From a virus, in the IMG/VR virus record IMGVR_UViG_3300001450_000008, positions 1-26,750 of that record: a DNA stretch of 26,750 nt; one strand, written 5' to 3'. The position numbers and the translations under genes are program-made. Under the pieces are notes generated by a model. It saw only the letters and a program-made list of their open reading frames with translations, did no database searches and was not told where the DNA came from. Of this stretch, positions 15,701 through 26,750 are shown piece by piece. The first letter of the stretch is position 1, and each line of letters begins with the position of its first letter.

Positions 15701-17445
15701 CAGTTCTTGACAGAATTAAATCAACTGCATTATACAGAACAAAAGTCAGTACAAAACAATATAAGACAAACATTGACGAGGTTACATTTTATTCAGATAC
15801 CACTGGCGATTTGGTCAAAGGTGTCAAAAGACCCAAAGCCGAATTGCAAGGCGAGGGTGTCAATTACAGGGGATTTAAAAAGCCTGAGATAACTGGAACT
15901 AGAACAAGACTTCAGGACTACAAGACTTCAACAAGTGAATCAACTGTCAAAGGTCAGCTAAAGTTTTCTGAAGTTGCTGGTGGCAAGATAAAGTTCAAGG
16001 GAAGTCCAGTAAGGCAAGTTGACACAATAGTTACTGGTGCAAAACTTACTGGCAAAAAGAACTTGAAACTAATTGATGATATGGTAGAAGAAGGACAGAT
16101 TGAAGAAGTTGGAAAGAAGACTGTAATGAAGGGAACTGATTATTTCGGGGGTGGCAAGAAGGCTGGTCAGTTAAAGCAGTCATTGGAAAGCAGAAACCCT
16201 ACAACGTATGAAACCCAAAGTGGAAAGATAAAACCAAAAGATGAAACAATACTTTACGGTGTAAGCAAGGGAAAGATTCCAGTTGACAAAAAGGCTTTCG
16301 CACAGACCATGAAAGAGTCAAATCTTCTTAGAGAGATGGCAGACAAAGCACCATTAAACAAAAAGCCTAAAGTACCAAAAGGTGTTGACGAACCACCAAC
16401 AGAAAAGTATCACGCATTTATCGGTGAGTCAAAGTCAACTGGTAAGACTTTTCAGGGAACTAGGGTTGAACTTGGTTCAGGCATTGGTACAACGGGTGTC
16501 GGCAGTAGTTTCACCAAAACAAATGTTGACTTGGGTAAAGGGGGTGGTATATCTAACATAAAAGATGTTAAAAGAATGTCTAGCAAACCTGATGTTGTTG
16601 GTGTTACAACCAATAGAATAAACGTAAAAAAGTTTGAAGAACCTAAAATACAAAAAGGTGATAAGATAGTTGACGGTAAAGAGGGGTCAACTGTTCAAAG
16701 AACAAGACTTGGTACATTCCAAGAAACCAAAATCAAACTGGGTCAAAGTGCAGTAGCAAAACCAGCACAGATACAAGTGCCAAAAGTTAAGGCTAGTGTT
16801 AAACCACCAAAGGTTTCGCCAAAGATTAAACAGATTGTCACACCTACTGTAAGTCAGAAAACTGGAACTGGTTTGGTACAACAAACTGCACAGTTGACCA
16901 AACAACAGACCAAACAAAAACCTAAGATTAAACAAGCACAAAGACTTAGAGCAGTTCAAAGTCAGTCTGCTATAACAGCCGTAGTTGCAAAGACAGTACA
17001 GGTTCAGGCAGTTGCACAGATGAAGTTGCCAACAATACAAAAAACTACAAAAAGAATAGGGGGTGGTACATTATTCTATGACACACCAAACCCACAAACA
17101 CAAAAAAGAAAAAGAAAGCGTGGTAAGAAGGCAGGGTTCATTGGCAACGTCAGACTTGACAACGTTGTTGGAATGTACAAGAGAAAAGAAATCACATACG
17201 GTCAAAAGAAAGTATCAAAGTTAGAAAGACAGGACATGAGATTGACGGCTGGAACTAAAAACAGAATTGCACTTCCGTCTTCAGGTCTGCTAAAGACCAA
17301 GAAGAAAAAGAAAAGCAAGACAGAAAGTGTGTTTGGTAGAAGTGTAACAAAAACTAAAGATGAATTTGTTGGATTTGAATCCAAACCTAAAAAGAAAACA
17401 GCCAAGCGTAAAAAATCCAAAACAAAAACAGTTAGATTAATGTAG
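12796..17445 (+). CDS. Very large coiled-coil protein with Lys-rich C-terminus (probable virion protein)
   Basis: This encodes 1549 residues without a signal peptide. Residues 1 to about 190 are rich in Lys, Glu, Ala and Gln and look like a long coiled coil. The middle is mixed. A Gly/Ala-rich hydrophobic stretch (about 715-780) could contact membrane. The C-terminal third is increasingly basic, ending in runs such as KTKKKKKSKT and KPKKKTAKRKKSKTK. A motif of the form F-x2-T-x-(V/I)-x-LG occurs at about 1219, 1239 and 1308, and KPFPEL occurs twice near 930-950. Size and layout suggest an internal scaffold or tail/tape-like protein, with the tail binding the genome. No enzymatic motif is visible. 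A TATA-like TTAATTAA 28 nt upstream supports ATG 12796. Confidence 0.7.
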   Translation: MAQTAKEKELEAKLAEAQTVQAGEIAKVQIEVYEGQTYVAKDAYQEAKSKRSKARSKLPEEIPDDPYYKERLLEAQYIKANISSPSERQQVDDYTDEIKKQQKAKETIHVLDRQIPELYSSAVEESKSVESKVEKARVAEEQRQTDLITGFQTQIVAEQKRETKRLDDIQKAKEAKALKLDQEATAREATYKNFMKNVSSGTNKHLSKQIHYAQVGGVGLAKGDIIIEVGNRGKTNATFHQSYYERIAKSFQNQGYTNITWIEARKISGAGATSMSGKAREQVMRKYLDPSGKMESDYQASRAQAKRNVASAYGSMSAQEKLTSSAMASTFATSPETKKAVQLEALSDMTGGLLGKKEYQVTEDKMTVYETDELYKTSGGTMGTRKDVTAQVMPIIQKQRAIELANRRQQEYVKELRAGNIGTANALSSPQTTQSYTGTSTVNLGTFLKERGLVAKTAPDSMFKPDYYEKLTEARKQTTGDLRTASPQFVGKSDQPYQMSRADSKEINQRKLAQQRIAVFDPKPIDSFLAKDSSYVPSVGTVTLKKNELLTKKETDVWGFDPIANQVNKDMQTTWTVPIKTKNAEYTADFKTREEAVLFQKSQIPKVFSGTDNEWWNKYNYAPAVDSGEVIHPSKTETWSDDIRLGAGYVITPSYNILKTVYNLTQPEDKQVPMLATAEDKLIGGTITDVMSGTPLKGTGVTGLADYVVENPFRAVAEIPSAVVTGVMGGKAITYGIKGASIGVSATAKLGNKIIQSNAPTIVKVPTIAMMGAGQAIQRTGAQVSAIPSRIGSSVYTYGDIPRGTKYGMPVFTIPQQVVRQGIVKPYDTATMFQGSRVGFGAKANFIMTPSGRMFVRQSTDIAGEIGAKPKFLNKQVAMFENENVVGFATRGKMKTTKYDMPKETPFKSDVFTPTDKTKLIPKEGLPKEKKPFPELYDSKATTSGKPFPELVKVEDIGKTSIPKLQTPTVLDRIKSTALYRTKVSTKQYKTNIDEVTFYSDTTGDLVKGVKRPKAELQGEGVNYRGFKKPEITGTRTRLQDYKTSTSESTVKGQLKFSEVAGGKIKFKGSPVRQVDTIVTGAKLTGKKNLKLIDDMVEEGQIEEVGKKTVMKGTDYFGGGKKAGQLKQSLESRNPTTYETQSGKIKPKDETILYGVSKGKIPVDKKAFAQTMKESNLLREMADKAPLNKKPKVPKGVDEPPTEKYHAFIGESKSTGKTFQGTRVELGSGIGTTGVGSSFTKTNVDLGKGGGISNIKDVKRMSSKPDVVGVTTNRINVKKFEEPKIQKGDKIVDGKEGSTVQRTRLGTFQETKIKLGQSAVAKPAQIQVPKVKASVKPPKVSPKIKQIVTPTVSQKTGTGLVQQTAQLTKQQTKQKPKIKQAQRLRAVQSQSAITAVVAKTVQVQAVAQMKLPTIQKTTKRIGGGTLFYDTPNPQTQKRKRKRGKKAGFIGNVRLDNVVGMYKRKEITYGQKKVSKLERQDMRLTAGTKNRIALPSSGLLKTKKKKKSKTESVFGRSVTKTKDEFVGFESKPKKKTAKRKKSKTKTVRLM

Positions 17446-17478
17446 AAAGATATATTAAAGCAAAATATTCTATATTGT

Positions 17479-17625
17479 ATGTTGTCAGAAAATAAAAACG
17501 GTTCAACAGTTGCAGTAAGTAATGAGATACACGCAGAGATTCACAGACTATGTAAGCGTGATGATCTCAAAGTTAAGGCAGTTGTAAACGAAGCTTTGAA
17601 AGAGTATCTGAAGGGCAGGGCATAA
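17479..17625 (+). CDS. Ribbon-helix-helix DNA-binding protein
   Basis: This encodes 48 residues: a short beta strand (STVAVS), helix one (about EIHAEIHRLCKRDD) and helix two (about VKAVVNEALKEYLKG), the CopG/MetJ-type fold that binds DNA as a dimer. TATATTAA (17451-17458) is centred 24-25 nt before the ATG, giving a leaderless start. Its TAA overlaps the ATG of the next gene (TAATG). As the first gene of the 17.5-19.4 kb cluster it is likely its repressor. Confidence 0.75.
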   Translation: MLSENKNGSTVAVSNEIHAEIHRLCKRDDLKVKAVVNEALKEYLKGRA

Positions 17626-18104
17626 TGACTTTAAAGCATACGTTAGAAAACTATCTGGGAAATTTAGTGAACTCTGATCCAAGAGTCAAAGAAAATCTCG
17701 ATAAGTTATTTCCTAATGACTCGACCTTGAAGGAAATAACGGACAACATTAACACTGAGGTACAAACAAACTCAGAGGAAGGTGAAGAAGAAAAAATGGC
17801 AAAATTTGAAAAACAGAACTCAGAATACATTAGTGGAAACGACTTGGTAAATACTGAAAATGTTCGATTTGAAATCCTTACAGAAGTGAAAGAAGAATCT
17901 AGCAACTTCGGTATGAAGCCTAAATGTTCCGTTAAGGTATCAAACAATGGTGTAACAACAGAGCAAAAGTGGACACTCAACTTACAGAACATCAATTTCT
18001 TAATTGATAGTTTCGGTGATGAATCTACTGCTTGGGTTGGAAAATCCGTAGGTGTTTTCGTAGAGAACATCAAGGGTAACAATGCAATCAGGGTAAAGGC
18101 ATAA
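17625..18104 (+). CDS. OB-fold-like, putative ssDNA-binding or recombination accessory protein
   Basis: This encodes 159 residues. The first ~57 are acidic and helical, the rest beta-rich. The C-terminal segment with KWTLNLQNINFLIDSFGD, then AWVGKSVGVFVE and IRVKA, resembles small phage proteins of the form (W/F)xLNxxNxxxLxxxxGDxTxxWxGK...IRVK, which are probably OB-like and are often found near replication genes. This is pattern recall, not a search result. An internal in-frame ATG near 17796 (MAKFEKQNS) could give a shorter product of just the beta domain. It is coupled by TAATG overlaps to genes on both sides. Confidence 0.5.
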   Translation: MTLKHTLENYLGNLVNSDPRVKENLDKLFPNDSTLKEITDNINTEVQTNSEEGEEEKMAKFEKQNSEYISGNDLVNTENVRFEILTEVKEESSNFGMKPKCSVKVSNNGVTTEQKWTLNLQNINFLIDSFGDESTAWVGKSVGVFVENIKGNNAIRVKA

Positions 18105-18208
18105 TGTGTTACACACAATTTAGAATGTCACAGGTTTTAGACAGTGACAATTCTATTCTTTTTTCTAAAGAATCAGACCAGCAAGACGAGGACGAAGAAG
18201 ATGGGTGA
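18104..18208 (+). CDS. Acidic mini-protein
   Basis: This 34-residue frame starts at an ATG overlapping the previous TAA and ends at a TGA overlapping the next ATG, both in this genome's usual manner. The C-terminal half is very acidic (ESDQQDEDEEDG). It may be a binding partner of a basic protein. Function unknown. Confidence 0.45.
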   Translation: MCYTQFRMSQVLDSDNSILFSKESDQQDEDEEDG

Positions 18209-18410
18209 CTTGTGGAAATACAAGGCAATAAGGGAAATCAAAGCCCGTCAGGAAGAAGCACGAAAAAAAATGAAAGATGAAAATTTTGCAATAGATTATG
18301 AATGTCGTTCATGTGGAACTTTGATTAAAGATTTTAATTCACTTCTTGTCCATATAGACAATGGACAAGAACACGAAATAAGGTATTTGAATAAAGATGA
18401 AACCAGTTAA
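18201..18410 (+). CDS. C2H2 zinc-finger protein
   Basis: This encodes 69 residues from ATG 18201, preferred to an upstream in-frame start at 18144 because it overlaps the preceding stop. A basic amphipathic helix rich in Lys/Arg/Glu (about 5-27) precedes a C2H2 finger, CxxC (CRSC) then H-x7-H in LVHIDNGQEHE. It probably binds nucleic acid as a small regulator. It overlaps the next gene by 14 nt. Confidence 0.65.
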   Translation: MGDLWKYKAIREIKARQEEARKKMKDENFAIDYECRSCGTLIKDFNSLLVHIDNGQEHEIRYLNKDETS

Positions 18411-18672
18411 ACTTAGCACCCAATTTTTATTATTTTTTATACCAGTCGCAGGTTATTACGCATGGTACAGGATAGGCAAACTATGGTCTGGATTCTTTTT
18501 GAATCTTGCACTTGGACTTACGGTGGTTCCGTTGTTTGTATTTCCAAATATGTTTTTGTATCAGAACTTTTTATTCCTAAGCATATCGATAGTCGGCTTT
18601 ACAGTAAAGATATACTTTTTAGTCAAGTGGTCAAAACAACATAACGAGAGGTGTGAAAATGACAAAATGTAA
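18397..18672 (+). CDS. Small membrane protein
   Basis: This encodes 91 residues with hydrophobic helices at about 8-25, 29-50 and 55-77, and a charged C-terminal tail (KWSKQHNERCENDKM). The ATG lies inside the 3' end of the zinc-finger gene. It sits among small regulatory genes rather than the virion cluster, so a host-membrane role early in infection is possible. Family not recognised. Confidence 0.6.
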   Translation: MKPVKLSTQFLLFFIPVAGYYAWYRIGKLWSGFFLNLALGLTVVPLFVFPNMFLYQNFLFLSISIVGFTVKIYFLVKWSKQHNERCENDKM

Positions 18673-18916
18673 ATGTGGTTCGCCACCTTGCAAGTGCAAG
18701 TCTTTCCAAAGAGATACCAAATGCGAACACAGACTGAAAGGCGAGTTTGGAAAAGAGTTGCACGAATGTGGAAAGGCTGGAATATTCAGGGAAGACTGTA
18801 ATACTTTCTTTCAAAGTAAAAAAGTTCTTTGTGAGGAACACTACGGTCAACATTACAGATACGCCCATACCAAATGTGGAATATGTGGCACAACATACGC
18901 AGAGTGTTGTTGTTAA
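18659..18916 (+). CDS. Cys/His-rich zinc-binding protein
   Basis: The product has 85 residues from ATG 18659 (GTG 18653 is in frame). It is rich in Cys and His: KCKCGSPPCKCK at the N-terminus, ECGK and DCNTF in the middle, then CEEHYGQHYRYAH, CGICG and the terminal CCC. At least two zinc sites are likely. A GGTG about 8 nt upstream of the ATG may help initiation at this internal cistron. It overlaps the membrane-protein gene by 14 nt. A DNA- or protein-binding adaptor is the likely role. Confidence 0.65.
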   Translation: MTKCKCGSPPCKCKSFQRDTKCEHRLKGEFGKELHECGKAGIFREDCNTFFQSKKVLCEEHYGQHYRYAHTKCGICGTTYAECCC

Positions 18917-18973
18917 TGCTTGTTGGTTTAACTTAGCTGACAAGGTGGTTGGCTACCGATTAGTTAATTAGAT

Positions 18974-18991
18974 GGGGGGGTATAACCCCCC
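18974..18991 (+). promoter_or_regulatory. G-run/C-run hairpin abutting a start codon
   Basis: GGGGGG (75-80 of 189xx) pairs with CCCCCC (86-91) around the loop TATAA. An extra G precedes the stem. It ends 2 nt before ATG 18994, so it could hide the start codon in the mRNA, terminate the upstream transcript, or bind a protein as DNA. Confidence 0.5.
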
Positions 18992-18993
18992 TT

Positions 18994-19095
18994 ATGACTG
19001 GACTTTGTAGCAAGTGTCATAATTCTAACGTGGAATTGTTTGATATAGACGAAGGGCTGTACCAATGTGAGTTATGCATAATAGGCAACGAATGA
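18994..19095 (+). CDS. Mini zinc-ribbon protein
   Basis: The product has 33 residues with two CxxC knuckles: CSKC near the N-terminus and CELC near the C-terminus. It starts just after the G/C hairpin and ends by TGA overlapping ATG 19092 of the nuclease-like gene. It is probably a regulator or a partner of the next product. Confidence 0.6.
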   Translation: MTGLCSKCHNSNVELFDIDEGLYQCELCIIGNE

Positions 19096-19412
19096 GAATT
19101 AGTAATGGTCACGCTACAAAATATCTATTGCAACAAAAATATAATCACATTTGGCTCAAAGCCCACACAAAGTTTAAAGACAAAGTACAATGTCAGGATT
19201 CTAGATACTATGCTCTTGACTTATGGAACCTTTATGATGGCTTATGTTTTGATTCCAAAGGTTATCTTTGGGCTATCCAAATTAAGACAAACGCATGGGC
19301 GAAAGCCAGTGACATTATAGAGTTCCAAAAAGACCACAGGATAAAATGTATCGTTTTGAACGTAAAGAAACAGGGTTCAAGGTGGAAAGTTTTTGAAAGA
19401 AAGTATATATGA
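19092..19412 (+). CDS. PD-(D/E)XK-like nuclease candidate
   Basis: This encodes 106 residues from ATG 19092, chosen because it overlaps the preceding stop; ATG 19074 is in frame. The order fits a restriction-endonuclease-like core: an N-terminal helix (KYLLQQKYN), then ALDLWNLYDGLCFD with candidate acidic residues, then the strand WAIQIKT, then a helix and the final strand CIVLNVKK. The usual E-x-K appears as Q-x-K, a known variant in some divergent members but also a reason for caution. Holliday-junction resolution or DNA cleavage during replication would fit its neighbours. Assignment is from pattern only. Confidence 0.45.
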   Translation: MRISNGHATKYLLQQKYNHIWLKAHTKFKDKVQCQDSRYYALDLWNLYDGLCFDSKGYLWAIQIKTNAWAKASDIIEFQKDHRIKCIVLNVKKQGSRWKVFERKYI

Positions 19413-19422
19413 AAGTATATTC

Positions 19423-19431
19423 TTAATATAA
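19423..19431 (+). promoter_or_regulatory. TATA box for a small transcript
   Basis: TTAATATAA is centred about 31 nt before ATG 19458. A direct repeat of CTAGAA (within 19433-19447) lies between them and could be an operator. Confidence 0.4.
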
Positions 19432-19457
19432 TTCTAGAAGGCTAGAACCGTATCATA

Positions 19458-19574
19458 ATGGACAATCAGTCGAATCCAATTCTTCAGTCTAAAAGTACGG
19501 CATGGGTTTTTAGGTTTATGGTCTTAACCTATTGTCCCACATTGAAGCCTTCGCAACATAACATTTTAATATAG
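19458..19574 (+). CDS. Possible 38-residue leaderless peptide, or structured small RNA
   Basis: ATG 19458 opens a 38-codon frame ending at TAG 19572-19574, with a TATA box about 31 nt upstream. The same bases contain a 7-bp closing stem, GGACAAT (19460-19466) with ATTGTCC (19531-19537), and an inner stem, TAGGTT (19511-19516) with AACCTA (19526-19531 region). The span is 78 nt, tRNA-sized, but it lacks tRNA anticodon and T-arm features. The peptide reading and the RNA reading compete, and neither is proven. Confidence 0.3.
   Translation: MDNQSNPILQSKSTAWVFRFMVLTYCPTLKPSQHNILI
19564..19573 (+). promoter_or_regulatory. TATA box for the PAPS-reductase-like gene
   Basis: TTTTAATATA is centred 27 nt before ATG 19596, with no ribosome-binding motif between them. 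Leaderless start. Confidence 0.5.
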
Positions 19575-19595
19575 AAAATTATACTGATTGTTGTT

Positions 19596-20420
19596 ATGAA
19601 TGAACGTAATGAGAAAAAAGTTGAAAAAGTATGGGGTAGTATTGTGAGATTAGAAACTGCCAAGTACCATGTAGATAACTATGAGCCATCATACCATATA
19701 TTATCATTTGGTGGTGGTCGTCAAACAGTTGCGTTATTAATATTAATGAAAGATATTTTTAAAAATAATGATAAAGGGTATGTCATATTTGCAGATACGG
19801 GGGGTGAGCATCAAGAAACTTATGATTACATAAGTGATTATATTGTACCATATTGTAAAACCAATAATATTAATTTTGTAAGAGTTTATAATAAATATGG
19901 AAAAACATTATATGATTATTGTTGGGATAAAAAAATTGTGCCATCAATAAAATTCAGAGATTGTACTTCCAAATTCAAGATAGCACCAATTAGAAAATTC
20001 ATAAGAGAAGAATTAGGTGTTACAAGAAAACACCCATGCTATGTTCATATTGGAATATCTTATGATGAGGCAACTAGAATGAACGCTTCTAATGTTTTAT
20101 ATGCCAAATCAGTATATCCGTTTGTTGATGGGTATAGGGATATAGAGGGTAAAAAAACAGTAGAGGACTGTGCTAAAATTGTTGCAGATGAGGGCTGGGC
20201 GATAGTACCAAAATCAGGGTGTTGGTTTTGTCCTTTTGCTCAGACATTGGACTTGTTAGACCCACGTTACAAAGAAAAGACACAGGCATTGGAAGAAAAT
20301 AATAGTAGATACCCAGAAATTAAACTGAGAGGTATGGGTAAAAATACAAAATCAGTTAATGAATTGACAATAAATGATGTAGGAAAAGACTCTTGTAAGT
20401 CTGGGTACTGTATGGTATGA
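19596..20420 (+). CDS. PAPS-reductase-family / PP-loop ATP pyrophosphatase-like enzyme
   Basis: This encodes 274 residues of the adenine-nucleotide alpha-hydrolase-like (PAPS reductase, DndC-related) superfamily. A PP-loop-like SFGGGRQTVA lies at 37-46, then FADTGGEHQETYDYI (65-79), RDCTSKFKIAPIRKF (121-135), and GCWFCPF (208-214). Two more Cys lie near the C terminus (SCKSGYC). C123 with C209/C212 and the terminal Cys could bind a metal or Fe-S cluster. Phage members are often called PAPS reductases without proof; sulfur transfer to nucleic acid or nucleotide activation is as likely as sulfate reduction. The gene looks more AT-rich than its neighbours (many TTA, ATA, AAA, AAT codons), which suggests separate acquisition. 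It has its own promoter and overlaps the next gene by ATGA. Confidence 0.75.
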   Translation: MNERNEKKVEKVWGSIVRLETAKYHVDNYEPSYHILSFGGGRQTVALLILMKDIFKNNDKGYVIFADTGGEHQETYDYISDYIVPYCKTNNINFVRVYNKYGKTLYDYCWDKKIVPSIKFRDCTSKFKIAPIRKFIREELGVTRKHPCYVHIGISYDEATRMNASNVLYAKSVYPFVDGYRDIEGKKTVEDCAKIVADEGWAIVPKSGCWFCPFAQTLDLLDPRYKEKTQALEENNSRYPEIKLRGMGKNTKSVNELTINDVGKDSCKSGYCMV

Positions 20421-20512
20421 AGTGTAACTGTTTCCCATGCCAAAACGGCACACATATTGATAGGGAATGTACCTATCGTTGCAACTGCACACATGAGGCA
20501 CATGAGAAATGA
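20417..20512 (+). CDS. Mini Cys/His-rich zinc-binding protein
   Basis: The product has 31 residues with six Cys and four His: KCNCFPC, ECTYRCNC and THEAHEK. The ATG overlaps the TGA of the PAPS-reductase-like gene and its own stop overlaps the next ATG. It may bind one or two zinc ions and perhaps partners the enzyme. Confidence 0.55.
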   Translation: MKCNCFPCQNGTHIDRECTYRCNCTHEAHEK

Positions 20513-20613
20513 GTTGGTTTAACCTGTCTGTAAACGCCAAGACCTGTAAAAGATGTAGGCAAAGAATTATGAATTATCCATGTGTTGAGTGTGGATTTAA
20601 TATAACCCGATAG
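20509..20613 (+). CDS. Mini zinc-ribbon protein
   Basis: The product has 34 residues with CxxC (CKRC) and CxxC (CVEC) separated by a short basic stretch. It is coupled by overlap to the preceding mini-protein. Its stop codon lies inside the left arm of a 9-bp hairpin that ends this transcription unit. Confidence 0.6.
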   Translation: MSWFNLSVNAKTCKRCRQRIMNYPCVECGFNITR

Positions 20614-20632
20614 AGGGCTTCATTCTATCGGG
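20606..20632 (+). terminator. Hairpin at the end of the PAPS-reductase unit
   Basis: CCCGATAGA (20606-20614) and TCTATCGGG (20624-20632) form a perfect 9-bp stem with a 9-nt loop. It overlaps the stop codon of the last gene. There is no T-run after it, so it may protect the RNA 3' end or bind a protein rather than terminate. Confidence 0.45.
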
Positions 20633-20809
20633 ACTAGGAATATGAGTATGCAATCTTAATACTCTGTATGAATAGTATGATACTGTTATTTATAAAAGGT
20701 GATGATGTATCTACATTCTTTCACCTTGAAGGGTTTGGTTCGTGACGAATTTAATCTAATCAGCGAACTTAAACTAAGACTTGTTATAATCTATTTAAGA
20801 TTGTAGTAA

Positions 20810-20821
20810 ACTTACTTAGGT
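20810..20821 (+). repeat. 12-bp direct repeat, copy 1
   Basis: ACTTACTTAGGT occurs here and at 20939-20950, on either side of the large inverted repeat. It may be an iteron or RHH-protein site. Confidence 0.55.
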
Positions 20822-20849
20822 GTCCCATGATATTTACGGGACACTTTTT
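20820..20849 (+). terminator. Hairpin with T-run
   Basis: GTGTCCC (20820-20826) pairs with GGGACAC (20838-20844) around an 11-nt loop, followed at once by TTTTT (20845-20849). It resembles an intrinsic terminator. GGGACAC can instead pair with the second GTGTCCC at 20901-20907. Confidence 0.5.
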
Positions 20850-20917
20850 CATCATTAACTTTCTTGTATATTTTTTTCTAGCAAAGTTAATGATAGAATT
20901 GTGTCCCGTAAATTCAT
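20827..20917. repeat. Nested long inverted repeat (origin-like)
   Basis: Outer arms ATTTACGGGACAC (20832-20844) and GTGTCCCGTAAAT (20901-20913) are perfect over 13 nt and extend by ATGA/TCAT after a one-base bulge. Inner arms ATCATTAACTTT (20851-20862) and AAAGTTAATGAT (20883-20894) are perfect over 12 nt. The 20-nt centre is mostly A and T, with a run of seven T. Confidence 0.7.
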
Positions 20918-20921
20918 TATA

Positions 20922-20931
20922 CTTTATATAA
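20922..20931 (+). promoter_or_regulatory. Consensus-like TATA box
   Basis: TTTATATAAA is a near-ideal archaeal TATA box. It predicts a start near 20950 and a ~32-nt leader for the RHH gene. A second box TTTATTAA (20955-20962) would give a leaderless start at TTG 20985. Confidence 0.5.
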
Positions 20932-20938
20932 AACACTG

Positions 20939-20953
20939 ACTTACTTAGGTAAG
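20939..20953. promoter_or_regulatory. Candidate RHH operator (12-bp repeat, copy 2)
   Basis: The second ACTTACTTAGGT is extended here to CTTAC-TTAG-GTAAG, a dyad with 5-bp arms. It lies between two TATA boxes of the RHH gene, where a bound dimer would block transcription. Autoregulation is inferred. Confidence 0.45.
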
Positions 20954-20984
20954 ATTTATTAATTCAATGAAATATAGATAAATA

Positions 20985-21179
20985 TTGAAAGTGGTTAAGA
21001 ACTATTCATTAAATATTGAAGTGATAAGGGCATTTGACGCTGAAGTTTCTGATCAAACAAGGTCTAGGTTAATTGAGGCACTTATAATAAAATTTTTAGT
21101 TGAATATACTAGGGGTAGTGTCCAAACAACCCCTAGTGACGATTCCAGTCTTACCACAGAAAAGGAAGCGATACTATGA
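20985..21179 (+). CDS. Ribbon-helix-helix protein, likely regulator or initiator partner
   Basis: The product has 64 residues from TTG 20985 (GTG 20991 in frame): a beta strand (VVKNYSL), helix one (IEVIRAFDAEV), turn (SDQTRS), helix two (RLIEALIIKFLVEY), then a Ser/Thr-rich tail. This is the CopG-type arrangement. Its TGA overlaps the ATG of the SF3 helicase, like copy-control RHH proteins paired with replication genes on plasmids. Its probable operator lies just upstream. It could repress helicase expression or bind the origin repeats. Confidence 0.7.
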   Translation: MKVVKNYSLNIEVIRAFDAEVSDQTRSRLIEALIIKFLVEYTRGSVQTTPSDDSSLTTEKEAIL

Positions 21180-22849
21180 CTTTAATTCCTAATGATAAAT
21201 TGATTACTAATTGTGAGTTTTGTCTTAAAGACGATTTTGAAAACTGTGTTAACGGTGGTTTATGTCCAAACTATCCAAGTAAACCTCAGTTATCTACTAG
21301 AACCGTACTATGTGATCACTGTCAAAAAGACGGTGGGTATATGAACGGGTACCATGAGATATGTGAGCAGAATTATATCAACAATGGCATGAAGACATTT
21401 TGTCAGTGTACCAATATGGGACATGGTAGGAATGTTACAACTTCCAACGAGTCGTTATCATTTGCAGACCAAATTAAGTTCGAGGCTGACTCATTAGATA
21501 CTGTAAAACATGAGCATAAGGACAGAATTGACATTGTTACTGGTAGGCTAATTACAAAATATAATTTTATTACTGCAAGGGAAACCGATTCAATTTATTA
21601 TTTCAATGGCAAGATTTATGATTCCAAGAATTGTGAGTCAGTAATCAAACAGGAAACTGAGGCACAGATTGTAGAGTGTACCAAGTCAGACAAATCCGAA
21701 GTCATTGACAAGATAAAGTCAAGAACCTATGAAAGTCTTGAACATTTTGACAGTGACATTGACATTCTAGTCGTACAAAACGGGGTGCTGAATTTACAGA
21801 CAATGGAATTGTCGTCACATACCCCCCTTCTTTTGACAAAGGTTTTGTTACCTTGTAATTACGCCAAGCCTGAGTTTGAAATTAGATCAGATGATATTTT
21901 TGAGTCGTTAAAGTCAAACTTACAAGACACGTTGTTTTGGAAGTTCTTAGAAACTTCTTTTACAAAAGAGTATGTCATTGATGAAAAATCCATGCTTACC
22001 GTATTGGAAATGATGGCTTCGACATTCATTAGAAAGAATATTGACGAAAGAAGTTTTATCATGCTTGGCAACGGTGCCAATGGAAAGTCAGTATGTCTTG
22101 ACTATCTTTCCACACTGTTAGGAAATGACAACGTGTCACATATTCCGTTACAGGTTTTGGCTGAAGACAAATTTGCTTCGGCAAGACTTGACGGAAAACA
22201 AGCAAACATATTTTCTGACTTGGAAAGAAACGAGCTGTTCCATACAGGTATGATTAAGGATCTGTCTTCAGGCGAACCAGTACACGCACAGTTAAAAAAC
22301 AAAAACGGTTTTGATCTTTACCCTTTTGCTTCATTGGTATTTTCATGCAACAAGTTTCCCAGAGTCTTTGACCAGTCGCAGGGATTTTTCCGTAGATGGA
22401 TTCTTATTTTTTGGGAAAGAAACTTTGAGAAAGACCCACAAAGAAATGACAACTTGAAAAAGGAACTGTTGGAAAAGTCTGATGAAATGGACTTGGTATT
22501 CTCATGTCTGATTCATGTTGCCAAGATGTTATATGACTCTAACAGATTTTTAAATCCTAAAGACTGGAAGACGGTTCAAAAAATGTGGAATGAAAATTCC
22601 GATCCCTTGAACTGGTTTGTCGAGAACCATATTATTGATTCAAACGGTCACCGTTCAAAACGTGACACATACCAGTTTTATAAAAAAACAATGTTTGAAA
22701 AGGGCGAGGTTCCTTTGGGCATGGGTAGATTCAGCAAGGCTTTTTCGGAATATTATGAGGACTCAAAGTCAGACCATGAAAGAATTTGGCTGAACATTGA
22801 GTTCAGGGAACCACAGCAAACAATATTAGAGGACAGTGATAAAACATGA
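21176..22849 (+). CDS. SF3 (D5-like) replicative helicase with N-terminal zinc-finger-like Cys clusters
   Basis: This encodes 557 residues. The N-terminal ~90 hold Cys clusters (CEFC, CVNGGLC, CDHC, CEQNY, CQC), likely two zinc sites. A D5_N-like region follows. The helicase core has Walker A GNGANGKS (298-305), Walker B NIFSDLE (344-350), motif C FSCNKFP (389-395, Asn392) and an arginine-finger region FFRRW (about 405-409). SF3 helicases unwind origins of viruses and plasmids. No archaeo-eukaryotic primase or primpol signature is obvious in the N-terminal part, and no polymerase gene is present, so host primase and polymerase are probably recruited. The gene is coupled to the RHH gene by ATGA, next to the candidate origin. 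Confidence 0.9.
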   Translation: MTLIPNDKLITNCEFCLKDDFENCVNGGLCPNYPSKPQLSTRTVLCDHCQKDGGYMNGYHEICEQNYINNGMKTFCQCTNMGHGRNVTTSNESLSFADQIKFEADSLDTVKHEHKDRIDIVTGRLITKYNFITARETDSIYYFNGKIYDSKNCESVIKQETEAQIVECTKSDKSEVIDKIKSRTYESLEHFDSDIDILVVQNGVLNLQTMELSSHTPLLLTKVLLPCNYAKPEFEIRSDDIFESLKSNLQDTLFWKFLETSFTKEYVIDEKSMLTVLEMMASTFIRKNIDERSFIMLGNGANGKSVCLDYLSTLLGNDNVSHIPLQVLAEDKFASARLDGKQANIFSDLERNELFHTGMIKDLSSGEPVHAQLKNKNGFDLYPFASLVFSCNKFPRVFDQSQGFFRRWILIFWERNFEKDPQRNDNLKKELLEKSDEMDLVFSCLIHVAKMLYDSNRFLNPKDWKTVQKMWNENSDPLNWFVENHIIDSNGHRSKRDTYQFYKKTMFEKGEVPLGMGRFSKAFSEYYEDSKSDHERIWLNIEFREPQQTILEDSDKT

Positions 22850-22962
22850 GGTGTTTATTATGTGGCAAAGTTGTAAAGGTTCCCAATAATTATCATTGTT
22901 GGGTTGTTTCACAACAATGTGCCAAGTGTCATTATTTTGGGGGTAAAAAAATTGTCAGGTAG
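22846..22962 (+). CDS. Mini zinc-ribbon protein
   Basis: The product has 38 residues with CLLC at the start and CAKC later, plus His residues nearby, a typical small zinc ribbon with a basic end (GGKKIVR). The ATG overlaps the helicase TGA, and the gene overlaps the next one by 11 nt. Confidence 0.6.
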   Translation: MRCLLCGKVVKVPNNYHCWVVSQQCAKCHYFGGKKIVR

Positions 22963-23125
22963 AAACTATGAACTGTATTCGTATTGCAACGGCTGTTCAG
23001 AAAGAAAGATGAAAAAATTTCCTAAAAATATGCTAAGATGTGATTTTTGTAATGAGAAACTAAGACACAAACCAAAGTCACCCTCAGCTAAAAGACGGGA
23101 AAATGTTAACTATACTCGTATTTAA
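22952..23125 (+). CDS. Zinc-ribbon protein with basic tail
   Basis: TTG 22952 overlaps the end of the preceding gene and is the likely start of a 57-residue product; a longer in-frame start at 22904 exists. CNGC and CDFC flank a basic stretch (SERKMKKFPKNMLR), and the tail is rich in Lys and Arg (HKPKSPSAKRRE). Nucleic-acid binding is likely. Confidence 0.6.
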   Translation: MSGRNYELYSYCNGCSERKMKKFPKNMLRCDFCNEKLRHKPKSPSAKRRENVNYTRI

Positions 23126-23128
23126 ATA
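23121..23128 (+). promoter_or_regulatory. TATA box for the 23155 unit
   Basis: TTTAAATA is centred about 30 nt before ATG 23155, overlapping the preceding stop codon. It starts a new transcription unit within the dense cluster. Confidence 0.45.
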
Positions 23129-23154
23129 TGGGTATAGTTTGATATATTCAGGGC

Positions 23155-23331
23155 ATGGCTAGACCAAGAATAGATTACCAAACTCAATGTATCTGTATGG
23201 AATGTAACCAACTTTATTCAAAGGAATTAAAATTAACCATGTGTCCTAACCCGAATTGCTACAATGCTCATCTACGATTTCAGTCAAGAAGCAAGTCTGC
23301 TCGACACCGTAGAGAGGTCAAGAGGTATTGA
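23155..23331 (+). CDS. Zinc-ribbon protein with Arg-rich tail
   Basis: The product has 58 residues with Cys at CICMEC and CPNPNC, about 15 residues apart, then a basic tail (RSKSARHRREVKRY). It probably binds DNA or RNA. A TATA box 30 nt upstream supports a leaderless ATG. Its stop overlaps the TTG of the next gene. Confidence 0.65.
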   Translation: MARPRIDYQTQCICMECNQLYSKELKLTMCPNPNCYNAHLRFQSRSKSARHRREVKRY

Positions 23332-23429
23332 AGTGCAAGTTATGTGGGGAAAATTTTGATGAAGAGGACAGGTTCAAACACCAAAGTCAGAAACACTTTT
23401 GGTATTTGGGTGACATAACTGATGATTGA
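23328..23429 (+). CDS. Mini C2H2 zinc-finger protein
   Basis: The product has 33 residues from TTG 23328: CKLC, then H-x4-H (HQSQKH) at finger spacing, then an acidic end. The start overlaps the previous TGA and the stop lies inside the next gene's start (ATGATTGA). Probably a single finger. Confidence 0.55.
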   Translation: MKCKLCGENFDEEDRFKHQSQKHFWYLGDITDD

Positions 23430-24429
23430 AATTATAATGCTTATGATGTTGGGTAATGCTGGTGCATTGATGGACGTACAGATCAACATAGATGAGAAAA
23501 CTGAACTGGTTACAGAACTTGAAAAGGAATTTGAAGAACTGCTTGTAAAAAAAACTGCACAGGAAGTCAAGTTGAACATATTGTTTAACGAGTTTAAACA
23601 GTATGAACGTGAAGAAGAATGGGATAACTCAAAGACTAGACAGGAATTTGTAGAGTTTAAGGCAAGGGAAGTCAAGAGTGAATGGCGTGTCGAGTATAGA
23701 ATACTTGATAAAATAATAATTGAGTTTAAAAAATTAGAACATGATTTAGAAACTGCCAAGATACTACTGGAAAGAATGAACAAGGATTTTGAAAATATAA
23801 CCAAAGCAAACTCAGATGTAAACAGATACAATAATATCTCAATTTCACTTAGCAAGAACTGTCAGACCATGATCGAGTACGGGTTATACACCAACTGCCC
23901 TACCTATCGTGAACTGTTTGACACGTTTGATACGACAAATCCAACTGCGTCAGGCACAATGACTGACTATGGGTATGATGTTTCTAGGGAAAACATAATG
24001 AAAAAGCATTGGAAATTTTATGAATATCAGACTGACTTTGATTTAATCATGGTAGATCCTGACTCTGACTATCAGAACAAGTCAGTCAATATAGAAATTC
24101 AGGCTAGTAACTTTACCACTCTTTCGGTAGTTGGTAGTGACAATGCAAGGGGTTTTAAAAATGGAAGTTATACAACATGGGAAAATTTTAAAGTCACTGA
24201 GGACTGCCGTCAGATAATTGTTGCACCTAACATGGAACTGATTACACAGGCTGTTGAATACGCAAGAAACAACTGTAACGGTGAGATTGAAGTCTTGAAA
24301 AATACTGTTATCAAGCAAGAACCCACACCACATGACGATAGGAACTGGCGTGACTCACCAGCACTGGTTTATCAGGACTGGTTAAGGAACGCCATTGAAA
24401 ACAACAAAGGACTGATGTTAGGTGGTTAA
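23422..24429 (+). CDS. Coiled-coil protein with unrecognised C-terminal domain
   Basis: This encodes 335 residues from ATG 23422, chosen for its overlap with the preceding stop; ATG 23470 is in frame. Residues ~25-130 are rich in Glu, Lys and Leu and form a probable coiled coil. The C-terminal ~190 residues have alpha/beta character with FDLIMVDPDSDYQNKSVNIEIQ-type strands and several Trp and Tyr. The spacing of acidic residues before IEIQ loosely recalls PD-(D/E)XK nucleases, but the lysine is missing, so no function is assigned. It lies between zinc-finger genes and the integrase cluster. Confidence 0.6.
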   Translation: MIEIIMLMMLGNAGALMDVQINIDEKTELVTELEKEFEELLVKKTAQEVKLNILFNEFKQYEREEEWDNSKTRQEFVEFKAREVKSEWRVEYRILDKIIIEFKKLEHDLETAKILLERMNKDFENITKANSDVNRYNNISISLSKNCQTMIEYGLYTNCPTYRELFDTFDTTNPTASGTMTDYGYDVSRENIMKKHWKFYEYQTDFDLIMVDPDSDYQNKSVNIEIQASNFTTLSVVGSDNARGFKNGSYTTWENFKVTEDCRQIIVAPNMELITQAVEYARNNCNGEIEVLKNTVIKQEPTPHDDRNWRDSPALVYQDWLRNAIENNKGLMLGG

Positions 24430-24733
24430 GAAATTTAACAATAGGTATGACAACCTAAGTCCGTTTAAAAGAATCTTGCACAAATATACAGGCTTTATTG
24501 TGATGGGTATTTTTATTGCAGTTGTCTTTACTGCTTGGACTATGTATGATCAGGAAACAGAATTTTTTCATTCATGGGCTTGTGACAAACTGTTTTATTA
24601 TATGCAAGAAGAAACAACCTATGGCTATACTGGACACGCAGAACTGGACGAGGAAAAACACCTAAAGTTACATGAGTTATATGACACTGACTGTACCAAA
24701 GGAAACTTCCAGCCGTCAGACAAAATACATTAA
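24422..24733 (+). CDS. Single-pass membrane protein
   Basis: The product has 103 residues from GTG 24422, overlapping the previous gene by 8 nt. A basic N-terminus (KKFNNRYDNLSPFKRILHK) is followed by one helix at about 24-43. A C-terminal domain of ~60 residues has two Cys (WACDKL, DTDCTK) that could form a disulfide outside the cell. Topology is N-in, C-out. Function unknown. Confidence 0.6.
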   Translation: MVKKFNNRYDNLSPFKRILHKYTGFIVMGIFIAVVFTAWTMYDQETEFFHSWACDKLFYYMQEETTYGYTGHAELDEEKHLKLHELYDTDCTKGNFQPSDKIH

Positions 24734-24757
24734 ATATAAGGTCATTTAGTATAAATC

Positions 24758-24898
24758 ATGGACAGATGGGACGATACACCTCAAGATTTAGTTCAGATTA
24801 AACGTAACAAATTAAAAAAACTACTAGTCTTATATGGAATTGCTGGTGCATTGACAGGTATATCATTCGGGCTATACTTTTCGGGTGCTGTTTGCTAA
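24758..24898 (+). CDS. Small single-span membrane protein
   Basis: The product has 46 residues: a charged N-terminus with Lys/Arg (about 14-22) and a hydrophobic helix at about 23-45. TTAAATATAA (24730-24739) lies about 24 nt upstream, so the ATG is probably leaderless. It ends with a TAATG overlap. Function unknown. Confidence 0.55.
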   Translation: MDRWDDTPQDLVQIKRNKLKKLLVLYGIAGALTGISFGLYFSGAVC

Positions 24899-25017
24899 TG
24901 CCACATGGGTCTGATTACGGTTATGGCGTAACAAATTACACAGTAAAATCTGGAAAGCGTTGCCCTGCTTGTGGCAAGACAAAATGTAAGCATGGCAGAA
25001 AAGCTAGAGTTTTCTAA
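24898..25017 (+). CDS. Mini zinc-finger protein upstream of the integrase
   Basis: The product has 39 residues. CPACGKTKCKHG forms a compact CxxC...C-x-H site, followed by a basic end (RKARVF). It is joined by TAATG overlaps to the membrane-protein gene before it and the integrase gene after it. It could act as an excisionase-like or regulatory partner; this is only suggested by position. Confidence 0.6.
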   Translation: MPHGSDYGYGVTNYTVKSGKRCPACGKTKCKHGRKARVF

Positions 25018-25595
25018 TGCAAGATAAAGTAAATTATATTTCCCCCGAAACTTTTGAGAGAATCGTTGACTATATACCGATACTAGGTATTCGCAAGTGG
25101 AAAGACGAGGACATTAAAATGCTCTATAAGACAATGTATTACTGTGCATTACGGGCTAACGAGGCAATTCATTTAAAGAAAGAAAGTTTCAACTTGGAAG
25201 ACAGGGAAATTTATCTAGGCAAAACCAAAACAAAGAAACAAGATACTGCACATATTCCTCATATTTTTGTAGATGAACTAAAGACTTGGCTTATCTTCAA
25301 GGAAAAAGGTAGGCTGTTTGAAGGATTGACATATCCAAGACTGTATGTATGGTGTAAAAGAATAGGATCTGACTTGGATATTTCAGCATGGCAAAGTCTT
25401 GAAGCCGAAGTTGGTGAAAAGGTTGTGACACATTTGTTCAGAAAAAGTATTGGCAAGGAAATGTTAAACGGTACTCATGGTGAAAAAGCCAGTTCGATAC
25501 CAGTCATTTCAAAACACCTCAGACATTCAAAACCTTCCATGACAGTTGACCATTATCTAAAAGCCAGTCTTGAATCAGTCAAAGAGGCGTGGTAG
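25017..25595 (+). CDS. Tyrosine recombinase (integrase), catalytic-domain-only
   Basis: This encodes 192 residues carrying the expected catalytic set: Arg46 in CALRANEAIHL, Lys72/Lys74 in the beta-hairpin, His139-x-x-Arg142 in THLFRKS, His170 in LRHSKPS, and the nucleophile Tyr180 in VDHYL. There is little room for the usual N-terminal core-binding domain, so it is short like several archaeal virus and plasmid integrases. It would integrate or excise the circular genome, or resolve dimers. No tRNA-derived attachment site was recognised nearby. The start is fixed by a TAATG overlap with the zinc-finger gene. Confidence 0.85.
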   Translation: MQDKVNYISPETFERIVDYIPILGIRKWKDEDIKMLYKTMYYCALRANEAIHLKKESFNLEDREIYLGKTKTKKQDTAHIPHIFVDELKTWLIFKEKGRLFEGLTYPRLYVWCKRIGSDLDISAWQSLEAEVGEKVVTHLFRKSIGKEMLNGTHGEKASSIPVISKHLRHSKPSMTVDHYLKASLESVKEAW

Positions 25596-25628
25596 TATTT
25601 TTATACTATAATGTTTTGTACATAATTA

Positions 25629-25718
25629 ATGCCGTTTAAAAAAGGAAACAGACCTCACAACAAAGGGCACGTTAAAGTCGGTTCACATTTTAAAGCAAAA
25701 CCAAAACGTAAGAAATGA
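25629..25718 (+). CDS. Tiny basic protein
   Basis: The product has 29 residues, rich in Lys, His and Arg (GNRPHNKGH, KAKPKRKK). A TATA-like TTTTTATA (25598-25605) lies about 27 nt before the ATG. Its stop overlaps the next ATG. Composition suggests nucleic-acid binding or condensation. Confidence 0.5.
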   Translation: MPFKKGNRPHNKGHVKVGSHFKAKPKRKK

Positions 25719-25801
25719 CGGGTGTAAAAGGTTCTTGCAGAACAAAATATAATCGAAGTATTCCAAAGACTTACAAAAAAAAGTCAAAGAAAAAGAAATA
25801 G
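25715..25801 (+). CDS. Tiny Lys-rich protein
   Basis: The product has 28 residues ending in KTYKKKSKKKK. It is coupled by ATGA overlap to the preceding tiny basic protein and abuts the end of the convergent minus-strand operon at 25802. Likely function as for its neighbour; one may be a partner of the other. Confidence 0.45.
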   Translation: MTGVKGSCRTKYNRSIPKTYKKKSKKKK

Positions 25802-26077
25802 TTATTTTTTAAACTGACTCATAAAAGCGTCAATCAATATTACACAGCCATTTACGGGTTCACTATGGTCTATTAGAAATGACTTGTTTTCTACAAACTT
25901 CAAATCAAATTCTATGTCCTTAGTAACCATAACTATGTCATCCCTTGTTACAAGCCAGTCTTCCAAGTCATAGTCAGACACGCCCTGTGGTGTAAAGACC
26001 AGTTTGTAACCCAACTTTCGCAGTTTTCGTACAAGCTTGGCATTTCTGATATTTTCATCAAGAAATATCTTTTTCAT
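25802..26077 (-). CDS. PIN-like (DUF5615-type) small protein
   Basis: The product has 91 residues from ATG 26077, chosen because MKKIFLDEN is the usual start of the family; the frame is open to 26125. Acidic residues at expected places are Asp7 (FLDEN), Asp35 (VSDYDLEDW) and Asp54/Asp58 (VTKDIEFD), typical of PIN-like nuclease folds often found as toxins beside a DUF433 antitoxin. No DUF433 or other clear antitoxin lies next to it; the upstream gene is a zinc-ribbon-like protein. An RNase aimed at host or rival transcripts is possible. It is the last gene of the minus operon and overlaps the upstream gene by 20 nt. Confidence 0.65.
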   Translation of the reverse strand: MKKIFLDENIRNAKLVRKLRKLGYKLVFTPQGVSDYDLEDWLVTRDDIVMVTKDIEFDLKFVENKSFLIDHSEPVNGCVILIDAFMSQFKK

Positions 26078-26372
26078 ACCAGCCATATCCCCTAAGTCCG
26101 TCACGTTTTTCGTACAAACTTTCAAGCCATTCCTTGTCAGTCAGGATTTCATCACCTGTCATTTCATAATGTGTCAGAATTATGGAATAACAGTCTAGGC
26201 ATTTACCTACTAGATTTCCATAACCCCCGTCAAACCCGTCTGTATTGCTTCTTGAATGGAAACTTACCATTCTATGGTTACAGTCTTTAGGGTCTTGCAA
26301 CTCACCAAGTATCGCATTGATTATTGTCTTTGCTTCAGACTCGGAAGCCTTACGGATTTCAATCAAATCCAT
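26058..26372 (-). CDS. Hypothetical protein with possible zinc site
   Basis: The product has 104 residues from ATG 26372 (GTG 26375 in frame). A helical N-terminus precedes DCNHRMVSFHS and GKCLDCYS, a Cys/His set that could bind zinc. The C-terminal ~40 residues are charged, with several Tyr and Trp. It overlaps the genes on both sides. As the neighbour of the PIN-like protein it could be its partner, but it does not look like a known antitoxin. Confidence 0.6.
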   Translation of the reverse strand: MDLIEIRKASESEAKTIINAILGELQDPKDCNHRMVSFHSRSNTDGFDGGYGNLVGKCLDCYSIILTHYEMTGDEILTDKEWLESLYEKRDGLRGYGWYEKDIS

Positions 26373-26556
26373 CACCTGTTCTTTTTATGGCTTCAAAAAT
26401 TACCAATACAGTAAGTGTACTGCTCATTGTATAATTTACCATTGACACCTGTATAGGCTTACAACTGTTTTCATATCCGTACATATTGATTTGTGAATCA
26501 ATCGGTTCGGTTGTTGAATCCTGTTCAAACAAATGAGTATGGGTTCTTTCACTCAT
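26359..26556 (-). CDS. Hypothetical protein
   Basis: The product has 65 residues from ATG 26556, which overlaps the stop of the upstream zinc-ribbon gene; a longer in-frame opening to 26610 exists but would lie inside that gene. Ser/Thr-rich, with a weakly hydrophobic stretch (about 42-55) and no recognised motif. Confidence 0.55.
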   Translation of the reverse strand: MSERTHTHLFEQDSTTEPIDSQINMYGYENSCKPIQVSMVNYTMSSTLTVLVIFEAIKRTGDGFD

Positions 26557-26707
26557 TGTGTACGTCCTCAACAAAACAACCAGCACATAGATACACGTTA
26601 CCATCAACAAAAGTTATTTCTTTGTTTTTTGGCAACTTTGTAACTATGTATCTGTGACCTATCCCTATCGGATTTTCACAGTTGTCGCAGTATAGTGAAG
26701 ACTTCAT
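26549..26707 (-). CDS. Mini zinc-ribbon protein
   Basis: The product has 52 residues with CDNC (Cys7, Cys10) and CAGC (Cys41, Cys44), 30 residues apart, a classic zinc-ribbon layout. The ATG overlaps the TGA at 26704-26706 of the gene that crosses the window ends. That ATGA overlap is part of the evidence for circularity. Confidence 0.65.
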   Translation of the reverse strand: MKSSLYCDNCENPIGIGHRYIVTKLPKNKEITFVDGNVYLCAGCFVEDVHNE

Positions 26708-26750
26708 TGGTATTCAATTCCTTTTGCTTCGTCTTTGTCTGAATACATTC
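26704..26750 (-). CDS. Small hypothetical protein, 3' part (continues from the left edge)
   Basis: A frame open from the right edge ends at TGA 26704-26706. It is in phase with the minus-strand gene that leaves the window at base 1, given a direct join of base 26750 to base 1. See the entry at 1-97. Confidence 0.5.
   Translation of the reverse strand, partial: MYSDKDEAKGIEYQ

Follow-up and report, generated by a model that had tools for sequence, protein, structure and literature searches.

The analyzed DNA, hereafter the window, comprises the first 26,750 nt of the 35,661-bp virus record IMGVR_UViG_3300001450_000008 of IMG/VR (G000), and its positions 17,479 to 26,707 encode eleven small open reading frames (ORFs) with Cys/His motifs of the zinc-finger or zinc-ribbon type, named here by their start positions. 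The conserved zinc-motif ORFs are real genes under purifying selection, and their cysteines are nearly invariant. We lean toward a reading in which the region is the half of an archaeal virus devoted to replication and accessory functions, and its many single-domain zinc micro-proteins, each encoded separately, would serve as small regulators or accessory factors and not as fixed subunits of the neighboring enzymes. A preliminary description of this DNA had proposed either a dedicated regulatory or host-takeover toolkit or zinc adaptors paired with particular enzymes. The most likely interpretation is a set of zinc micro-regulators, whose zinc binding and function are predicted from sequence, whereas the pairing with enzymes fails where it is testable.

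All eleven ORFs of the preliminary description are present. Ten of them have the 31–69 residues given there for most (69, 33, 31, 34, 38, 57, 58, 33, 39, and 52 aa), and 18659 has 85 aa. The linkage by start/stop overlaps is likewise seen, because every ORF overlaps at least one neighbor by 1–22 nt and 6 of the 11 overlap both; by coordinates, the minus-strand ORF 26707 is one that overlaps both. The possible further site in the minus-strand gene at 26372 is borne out as to its C/H..CxxC motif (start 26372/26375), in a gene of ordinary size (105 aa). The statement that such genes would be missed by ordinary gene callers was an overstatement, as the annotations of HF2, His1, and Hardycor1 include similar genes.

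The crowding of so many Cys/His mini-genes into less than 10 kb is shown to be unusual by comparison with shuffled DNA. Among ORFs of 28–110 aa, of which the stretch holds 94, ten have at least two C/H pairs, as against 1.6 ± 1.2 in shuffled DNA (about six-fold), and none of the 500 shuffles reached 10. With the stricter pattern of at least two CxxC, five were observed versus 0.09 in the shuffles, and again none of the 500 reached the observed number. Nine of the ten two-pair ORFs belong to the original eleven, and one is an antisense chance match at 18943(−); 18201 and 24898 fall outside the pattern of at least two C/H pairs.

Conservation was analyzed in close relatives from IMG/VR. Five records are treated as full-length: G000, G001 (34,470 bp), G003 (33,221 bp), G004 (27,304 bp), and G005 (61,587 bp). 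G002 is a 4.3-kb fragment, and G006 (18-kb contig) and G007 (16.8-kb record), added by later scans, entered some of the comparisons. Conservation of the Cys pairs, a check set by the preliminary description, survives for nine of the eleven ORFs. Orthologues of 18659, 18994, 20417, 20509, 22846, 22952, 23155, and 24898 occur in all five full-length records and that of 23328 in four. In these nine, the Cys columns are 85–100% identical versus 61–87% in the other columns. The exceptions to invariance are Cys84 of 18659 (changed in G005) and Cys3 of 20417 (changed in G003), and Cys12 of 23155 is kept in only two of the five records.

Frame conservation, also set as a check, was measured as the pooled ratio of nonsynonymous to synonymous differences (pN/pS) together with stop counts; first-look blastp conservation was discarded as evidence because antisense ORFs score too. 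The ten measurable zinc ORFs are constrained, with pN/pS of 0.13–0.40 (median 0.21); 26707 was dropped from this count as it has too few changes. The median is 0.20 for 17 other genes and 1.03 for the 73 remaining ORFs, and in-frame stops occur in none of the ten zinc ORFs versus 61 of those 73. Because 20 of the 73 are also below 0.5, a low ratio alone is no proof for a single ORF; low pN/pS, the absence of stops, and Cys conservation together prove gene status. The weak members are 26707 and the zinc motif of 18201, both common only to G001. Genes of ~30–60 codons, usually dismissed, are thus shown with controls to form a large and conserved share of the genes in a group of viruses whose presumed hosts are ammonia oxidizers of global importance. 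The eleven ORFs and the 105-aa gene are as follows, with 5/5 denoting the five full-length records.

18201..18410, plus strand: 69-aa ORF, C-x2-C...H...H; zinc motif common only to G001, other C-termini elsewhere.
18659..18916, plus strand: 85-aa ORF with 13 Cys and 5 His; in G000, G001, G003, G004, G005, and G007; the 13 Cys columns are 98% identical over five records; pN/pS 0.25.
18994..19095, plus strand: 33-aa acidic zinc-ribbon-like ORF, CxxC...CxxC; 5/5, also G007; 4 Cys invariant in 5/5; pN/pS 0.27.
20417..20512, plus strand: 31-aa ORF with 6 Cys and 3 His, 4-nt overlap with the PAPS reductase gene; 5/5; 5 of 6 Cys invariant; pN/pS 0.17.
20509..20613, plus strand: 34-aa basic ORF, CxxC...CxxCG; 5/5, every Cys invariant; sub-threshold likeness to the HVO_2753/PRK14890 zinc pocket; pN/pS 0.13.
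22846..22962, plus strand: 38-aa basic ORF, CxxC...HC...CxxCH; 5/5, every Cys invariant; pN/pS 0.36; a 40% identical paralogue lies at record positions 27831-27691(−).
22952..23125, plus strand: 57-aa ORF, CxxC...CxxC and a basic tail, isoelectric point (pI) 9.9; 5/5, every Cys invariant; pN/pS 0.37; start codon TTG in G000, ATG/GTG in relatives.
23155..23331, plus strand: 58-aa ORF, CxxC...CxxxxC and a basic C-terminal helix; heads a predicted transcription unit; 4 of 5 Cys invariant in 5/5; pN/pS 0.16.
23328..23429, plus strand: 33-aa C2H2-like ORF, CxxC...HxxxxxH; start codon TTG; 4/5 (not G005), also G006 and G007; pN/pS 0.16.
24898..25017, plus strand: 39-aa ORF, CPxCG...CxH and basic ends; immediately 5′ of the integrase gene with a 1-nt overlap; 3 Cys invariant in 5/5; pN/pS 0.15.
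26549..26707, minus strand: 52-aa ORF, CxxC...CxxC; found only in G001, 98% identical.
26058..26375, minus strand: 105-aa gene, C...H...CxxC; conserved, with 3 Cys in all three records that have a match; not a micro-ORF.

The neighboring genes are listed below.

From 17479: ribbon-helix-helix gene.
19596..20420, plus strand: PAPS reductase-like gene (Pfam PF01507, E 2e-7), common only to G001 and the fragment G002.
21176..22849, plus strand: D5-type primase/helicase gene (DUF5906 and D5_N).
25017..25595, plus strand: tyrosine integrase gene (PF00589, E 2e-11).

Two tiny Lys/Arg-rich ORFs of 29 and 28 aa, conserved among relatives, lie 3′ of the integrase gene (25629–25801).

The products divide by charge. 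20509, 22846, 22952, 23155, and 24898 are strongly basic (pI 9.6–10.0), and 18994, 23328, and 26707 are acidic (pI 4.2–5.5). Based on this split and on the precedents of AFV1p06, His2, and Haloferax volcanii considered below, most of the ORFs may be read as encoding nucleic-acid- or protein-binding regulators: the basic members would bind nucleic acid and the acidic members proteins. Each small domain would hold one zinc ion, with probably more than one metal site in 18659. Overlapping ORFs would be translationally coupled to their neighbors, and the set would regulate or assist the transcription and replication of the virus and its control of the host. By precedent, a toolkit for regulation or host takeover is plausible: none of the ORFs is among the structural genes, several products are strongly basic, and the genes are distributed across more than one predicted transcription unit.

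Several observations weigh against the reading as a zinc micro-protein repertoire. None of the small ORFs scanned reaches a curated family cut-off in Pfam or NCBIfam, the NCBIfam and PHROGs scans covering the ten plus-strand ORFs. The structure models are of low confidence (predicted local distance difference test, pLDDT, of 68 for 23155 and 63 for 18659), and a fold search with the 23155 model, a hairpin and a helix, gave no match at E ≤ 0.001. Overlapping frames and short ORFs limit the power of dN/dS, and the host assignment discussed below is carried over from the published family. In PHROGs, which has no curated cut-off, the best E value for the ten ORFs was 0.015. Sub-threshold scores were obtained for 20509 with the HVO_2753 family (16.0 of 33.2 bits for PF07754 and 17.8 of 80 bits for NF041909) and for 23328 with the classical C2H2 zinc finger PF00096 (13.5 of 25.2 bits); a match of 18994 to TFS4 in NCBIfam (E 0.02) was not used as evidence. 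A sequence search of solved structures with three zinc-family profiles and the profile of gene 19074 gave nothing credible.

A dedicated role for each micro-protein, as zinc adaptor or subunit of the enzyme whose gene lies next to its own, is unlikely. The overlaps between the genes speak for such an arrangement, as does bacteriophage lambda, in which the tiny Cys proteins NinD–NinF also come after a PAPS reductase, NinC. However, the ORFs outlast the loss or replacement of PAPS reductase, primase, and gene 19074. Three of the five full-length records, G003, G004, and G005, have no PAPS reductase but retain 20417 and 20509, which have become separated from one another in G003 and G005. In G003, 22846 and 22952 still occur although the primase before them is a different and longer one (796-aa Prim-Pol/D5-like) and a 249-aa gene is inserted between it and 22846. 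In G005, the gene that follows 18994 is not 19074 but one whose HNH match is only sub-threshold, and in G007 a divergent 18994, similar to that of G005, precedes an 87% identical 19074. This persistence makes fixed partners improbable as a general rule. A single pair, 24898 and the integrase gene, is never separated: the two occur together with the 1-nt overlap in 7/7 records (G000, G001, and G003–G007), and they are left as a possible exception.

Redox or disulfide chemistry of the cysteines in place of zinc binding is a rather improbable alternative. CxxC is also a redox motif, and a PAPS reductase-like gene is among the neighbors; most of the ORFs, however, have two spaced pairs like those of zinc ribbons and treble clefs, several carry basic tails, and the family searches gave no thioredoxin-like match. 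Less probable still is that the ORFs are cis-acting coupling peptides that set the translation of the next gene and whose products are unimportant. The tight start/stop overlaps would fit such a device, but the protein-level constraint focused on the cysteines is unexpected for one that works purely in cis. That the micro-proteins jointly serve to buffer zinc, or to sequester it, during infection finds some resonance in the upregulation of the host znuABC genes on His2 infection, in the part of that study consulted (PMC7221443), but distinct, individually conserved sequences and charges favor separate jobs, and we consider this very improbable. Chance ORFs are scarcely credible as a general explanation, although short ORFs are common and chance may still account for 26707 and the motif of 18201, which only the nearest relative shares, since enrichment, Cys conservation, and pN/pS all oppose it and conservation refutes it for nine ORFs.

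The repertoire of separate zinc micro-proteins extends beyond the window. Seven further small zinc-type ORFs lie in the remainder of G000, giving 18 in the record. By the blastp criterion, 15 of these 18 are common to G001, 12 to G003, 12 to G004, and 11 to G005; the corresponding numbers for the 42 non-zinc genes are 34, 25, 26, and 34. Turnover of the zinc genes is therefore about as fast as that of the others. The relatives hold further zinc ORFs of their own. One of 29 residues lies between 18397 and 18659 in G001, G003, G004, G005, and G007; in G000, it appears to have been deleted, with its start fused to 18659 (window 18650–18670). The zinc ORF at record position 27961(−) is not found in close relatives and is 67% identical to an ORF in L074, a contig that also encodes an MCM helicase and a phage tail collar protein; this indicates that archaeal viruses of otherwise different kinds exchange such genes. 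On this reading, the repertoire consists of a core that all or almost all relatives retain and an accessory part exchanged among lineages, with one member also present in an archaeal virus of otherwise different make-up. A bolder proposal, which we regard as speculative and unlikely as it stands, is that zinc micro-proteins form an exchangeable kit in spindle-type viruses of ammonia-oxidizing archaea, with a fixed core and a rapidly swapped accessory set common to unrelated archaeal viruses, and that several members bind directly to the RNA polymerase or basal factors of the host; this kit, and not classical transcription factors, would then reprogram the host. The families of 23155, 20509, 24898, and 22952 are now defined for tests of expression, zinc binding, and interaction.

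Archaeal TATA-like boxes, found by eye and without a shuffle control, lie 25–34 nt before genes that head units, such as 100 (minus strand), 629, 878, 17479, 23155, 24758, and 25629. Internal genes are mostly without such a box, 25715 being an exception; for 19596, a pattern scan gave a box only at −18. Several predicted transcription units contain zinc ORFs, and 23155 is the only one of these ORFs that is clearly first in its unit; its box is invariant in 5/5 records. A search of 17400–26750 against Rfam gave no match.

Window positions 18914–18980, between 18659 and 18994, hold a conserved non-coding element (TGCTTGT..GG...GACAAGGTGGTTGGCTACCG...). It is nearly invariant in six records of the G000 group and also lies directly 3′ of a tail-collar gene in L074 and L071, two contigs of otherwise different kind. 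Its RNA fold has a z score of −3.2, and it has no Rfam match. The element is possibly a shared 3′-end or regulatory RNA of archaeal viruses.

The ends of G000 have 67 bp in common, and end repeats of 100–127 bp occur in G001, G003, and G004 (123 bp in G004), from which the genomes of the group are inferred to be probably circular. An integrase search of the genome collection gave a single match, the 18-kb contig in a Rhodobacteraceae metagenome-assembled genome (L038, G006:C91, NZVE01000056.1), which is probably a mis-binned contig of the same virus group. As far as the consulted parts of the two sources go, NYMAG-47 and ten IMG/VR genomes of 27,181–38,019 bp were reported as probable spindle-shaped viruses of Nitrosopumilaceae (Ni et al. 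2024, PMC10866085), and the family Nipumfusiviridae was ratified by the International Committee on Taxonomy of Viruses (ICTV) in 2025, with an average amino-acid identity of at least 30% with classified members as its criterion (PMC12451623). G000 probably belongs to this family, because 38 of 60 counted genes are common with G004 at 83.8% identity. Of a further mark of the family, a shared major capsid protein (MCP) and ATPase, the comparison within the group gave an ATPase and an MCP-like small membrane protein common to G000, G001, G003, G004, and G005. The host would then probably be ammonia-oxidizing archaea, as for the published family.

Outside the zinc region, the window contains genes for a giant 2,915-aa surface-type protein (2998–11745) and a 1,549-aa Lys-rich protein (12796–17445). 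In G005 (61.6 kb; L025-L028), positions 25744–27630 are identical to 59701–61587. The record looks like two related viruses joined at their giant surface-protein genes, its first 25.7 kb being a distant relative (ATPase ~29% identical) with small zinc ORFs of its own. The 100% identical stretch suggests recombination or mis-assembly at the giant gene.

The features of the set were compared with those of known systems, the published descriptions being drawn on in part. In the main text of the report on the Nitrosopumilaceae viruses (PMC10866085), "zinc" occurs once, for one core protein, and no earlier description of a zinc micro-protein repertoire in Nipumfusiviridae was found in the open-access literature searched. 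Zinc-finger micro-proteins of H. volcanii (HVO_2753, HVO_0758, and others) are likewise single-domain proteins of less than 70 aa with paired Cys motifs, and deletion of their genes gave a phenotype in 12 of 16 cases (PMC6562870). Ten of the eleven ORF products are below 70 aa. The H. volcanii proteins are defined by two C(P)XCG motifs, whereas none of the eleven has two; one motif is present in 18201, 18659, 20509, 22846, 23328, and 24898. AFV1p06, which binds zinc and DNA, and the SSV1 zinc-finger proteins are also small zinc fingers of archaeal viruses (PMC3541406; SSV1 annotation), but such viruses typically have one or two per genome (PMC3541406), compared with the 18 small zinc-type ORFs of G000. 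The nin region of lambda (NinC–NinD–NinE–NinF) resembles window positions 19596–20613 in that a PAPS reductase gene is followed by overlapping tiny Cys genes. Lambda is, however, a bacterial phage, and the scanned window ORFs had no Pfam Nin-family match; a zinc ORF of L074 shows sub-threshold NinD likeness.

The closest parallels by gene content are haloviruses. Viruses of the HF1 group (Serpecor1, Hardycor2, and HF2) also have many tiny Cys-pair genes outside the virion module that overlap genes for nucleic-acid enzymes (PMC7230728; HF2 annotation); 21–23 CxxC genes, 12–14 of them shorter than 100 aa, are reported for the group (PMC7230728). Hardycor1 has ten hypothetical CxxC proteins (PMC7911831), and both early and late genes of His2 include small CxxC proteins (PMC7221443). 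His1 (Halspiviridae) is, like the presumed family of G000, a spindle-shaped archaeal virus, and eight ORFs are annotated as CXXC in the stretch of it that was read. The HF1 group differs in comprising tailed viruses of haloarchaea, and His1 in its haloarchaeal host, type-B DNA polymerase, and linear genome; in both cases the likeness was judged by gene content. In a comparison with eight hand-chosen reference viruses, which is no survey, the excess of double-CxxC ORFs per 10 kb was 2.6–4.5 in the G000 group (5.3 in the reported stretch) and 4.2 in His1, compared with 1.0 in lambda, 0.9 in AFV1, 0.7 in STSV1, 0.6 in HF2, 0.6 in SSV1, 0.5 in phiCh1, and 0 in SIRV2; the references counted in part were STSV1 (50/75 kb), phiCh1 (50/58 kb), His1 (14.0/14.5 kb), AFV1 (20.0/20.9 kb), and SIRV2 (35.0/35.5 kb). 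His1 is thus as dense as the G000 group, which counts against any claim to a record. Dense sets of small CxxC genes were already known from haloviruses, and the G000 set is a new dense example. It extends the halovirus pattern to viruses of a probably different archaeal phylum and suggests that zinc micro-proteins are general among archaeal viruses.

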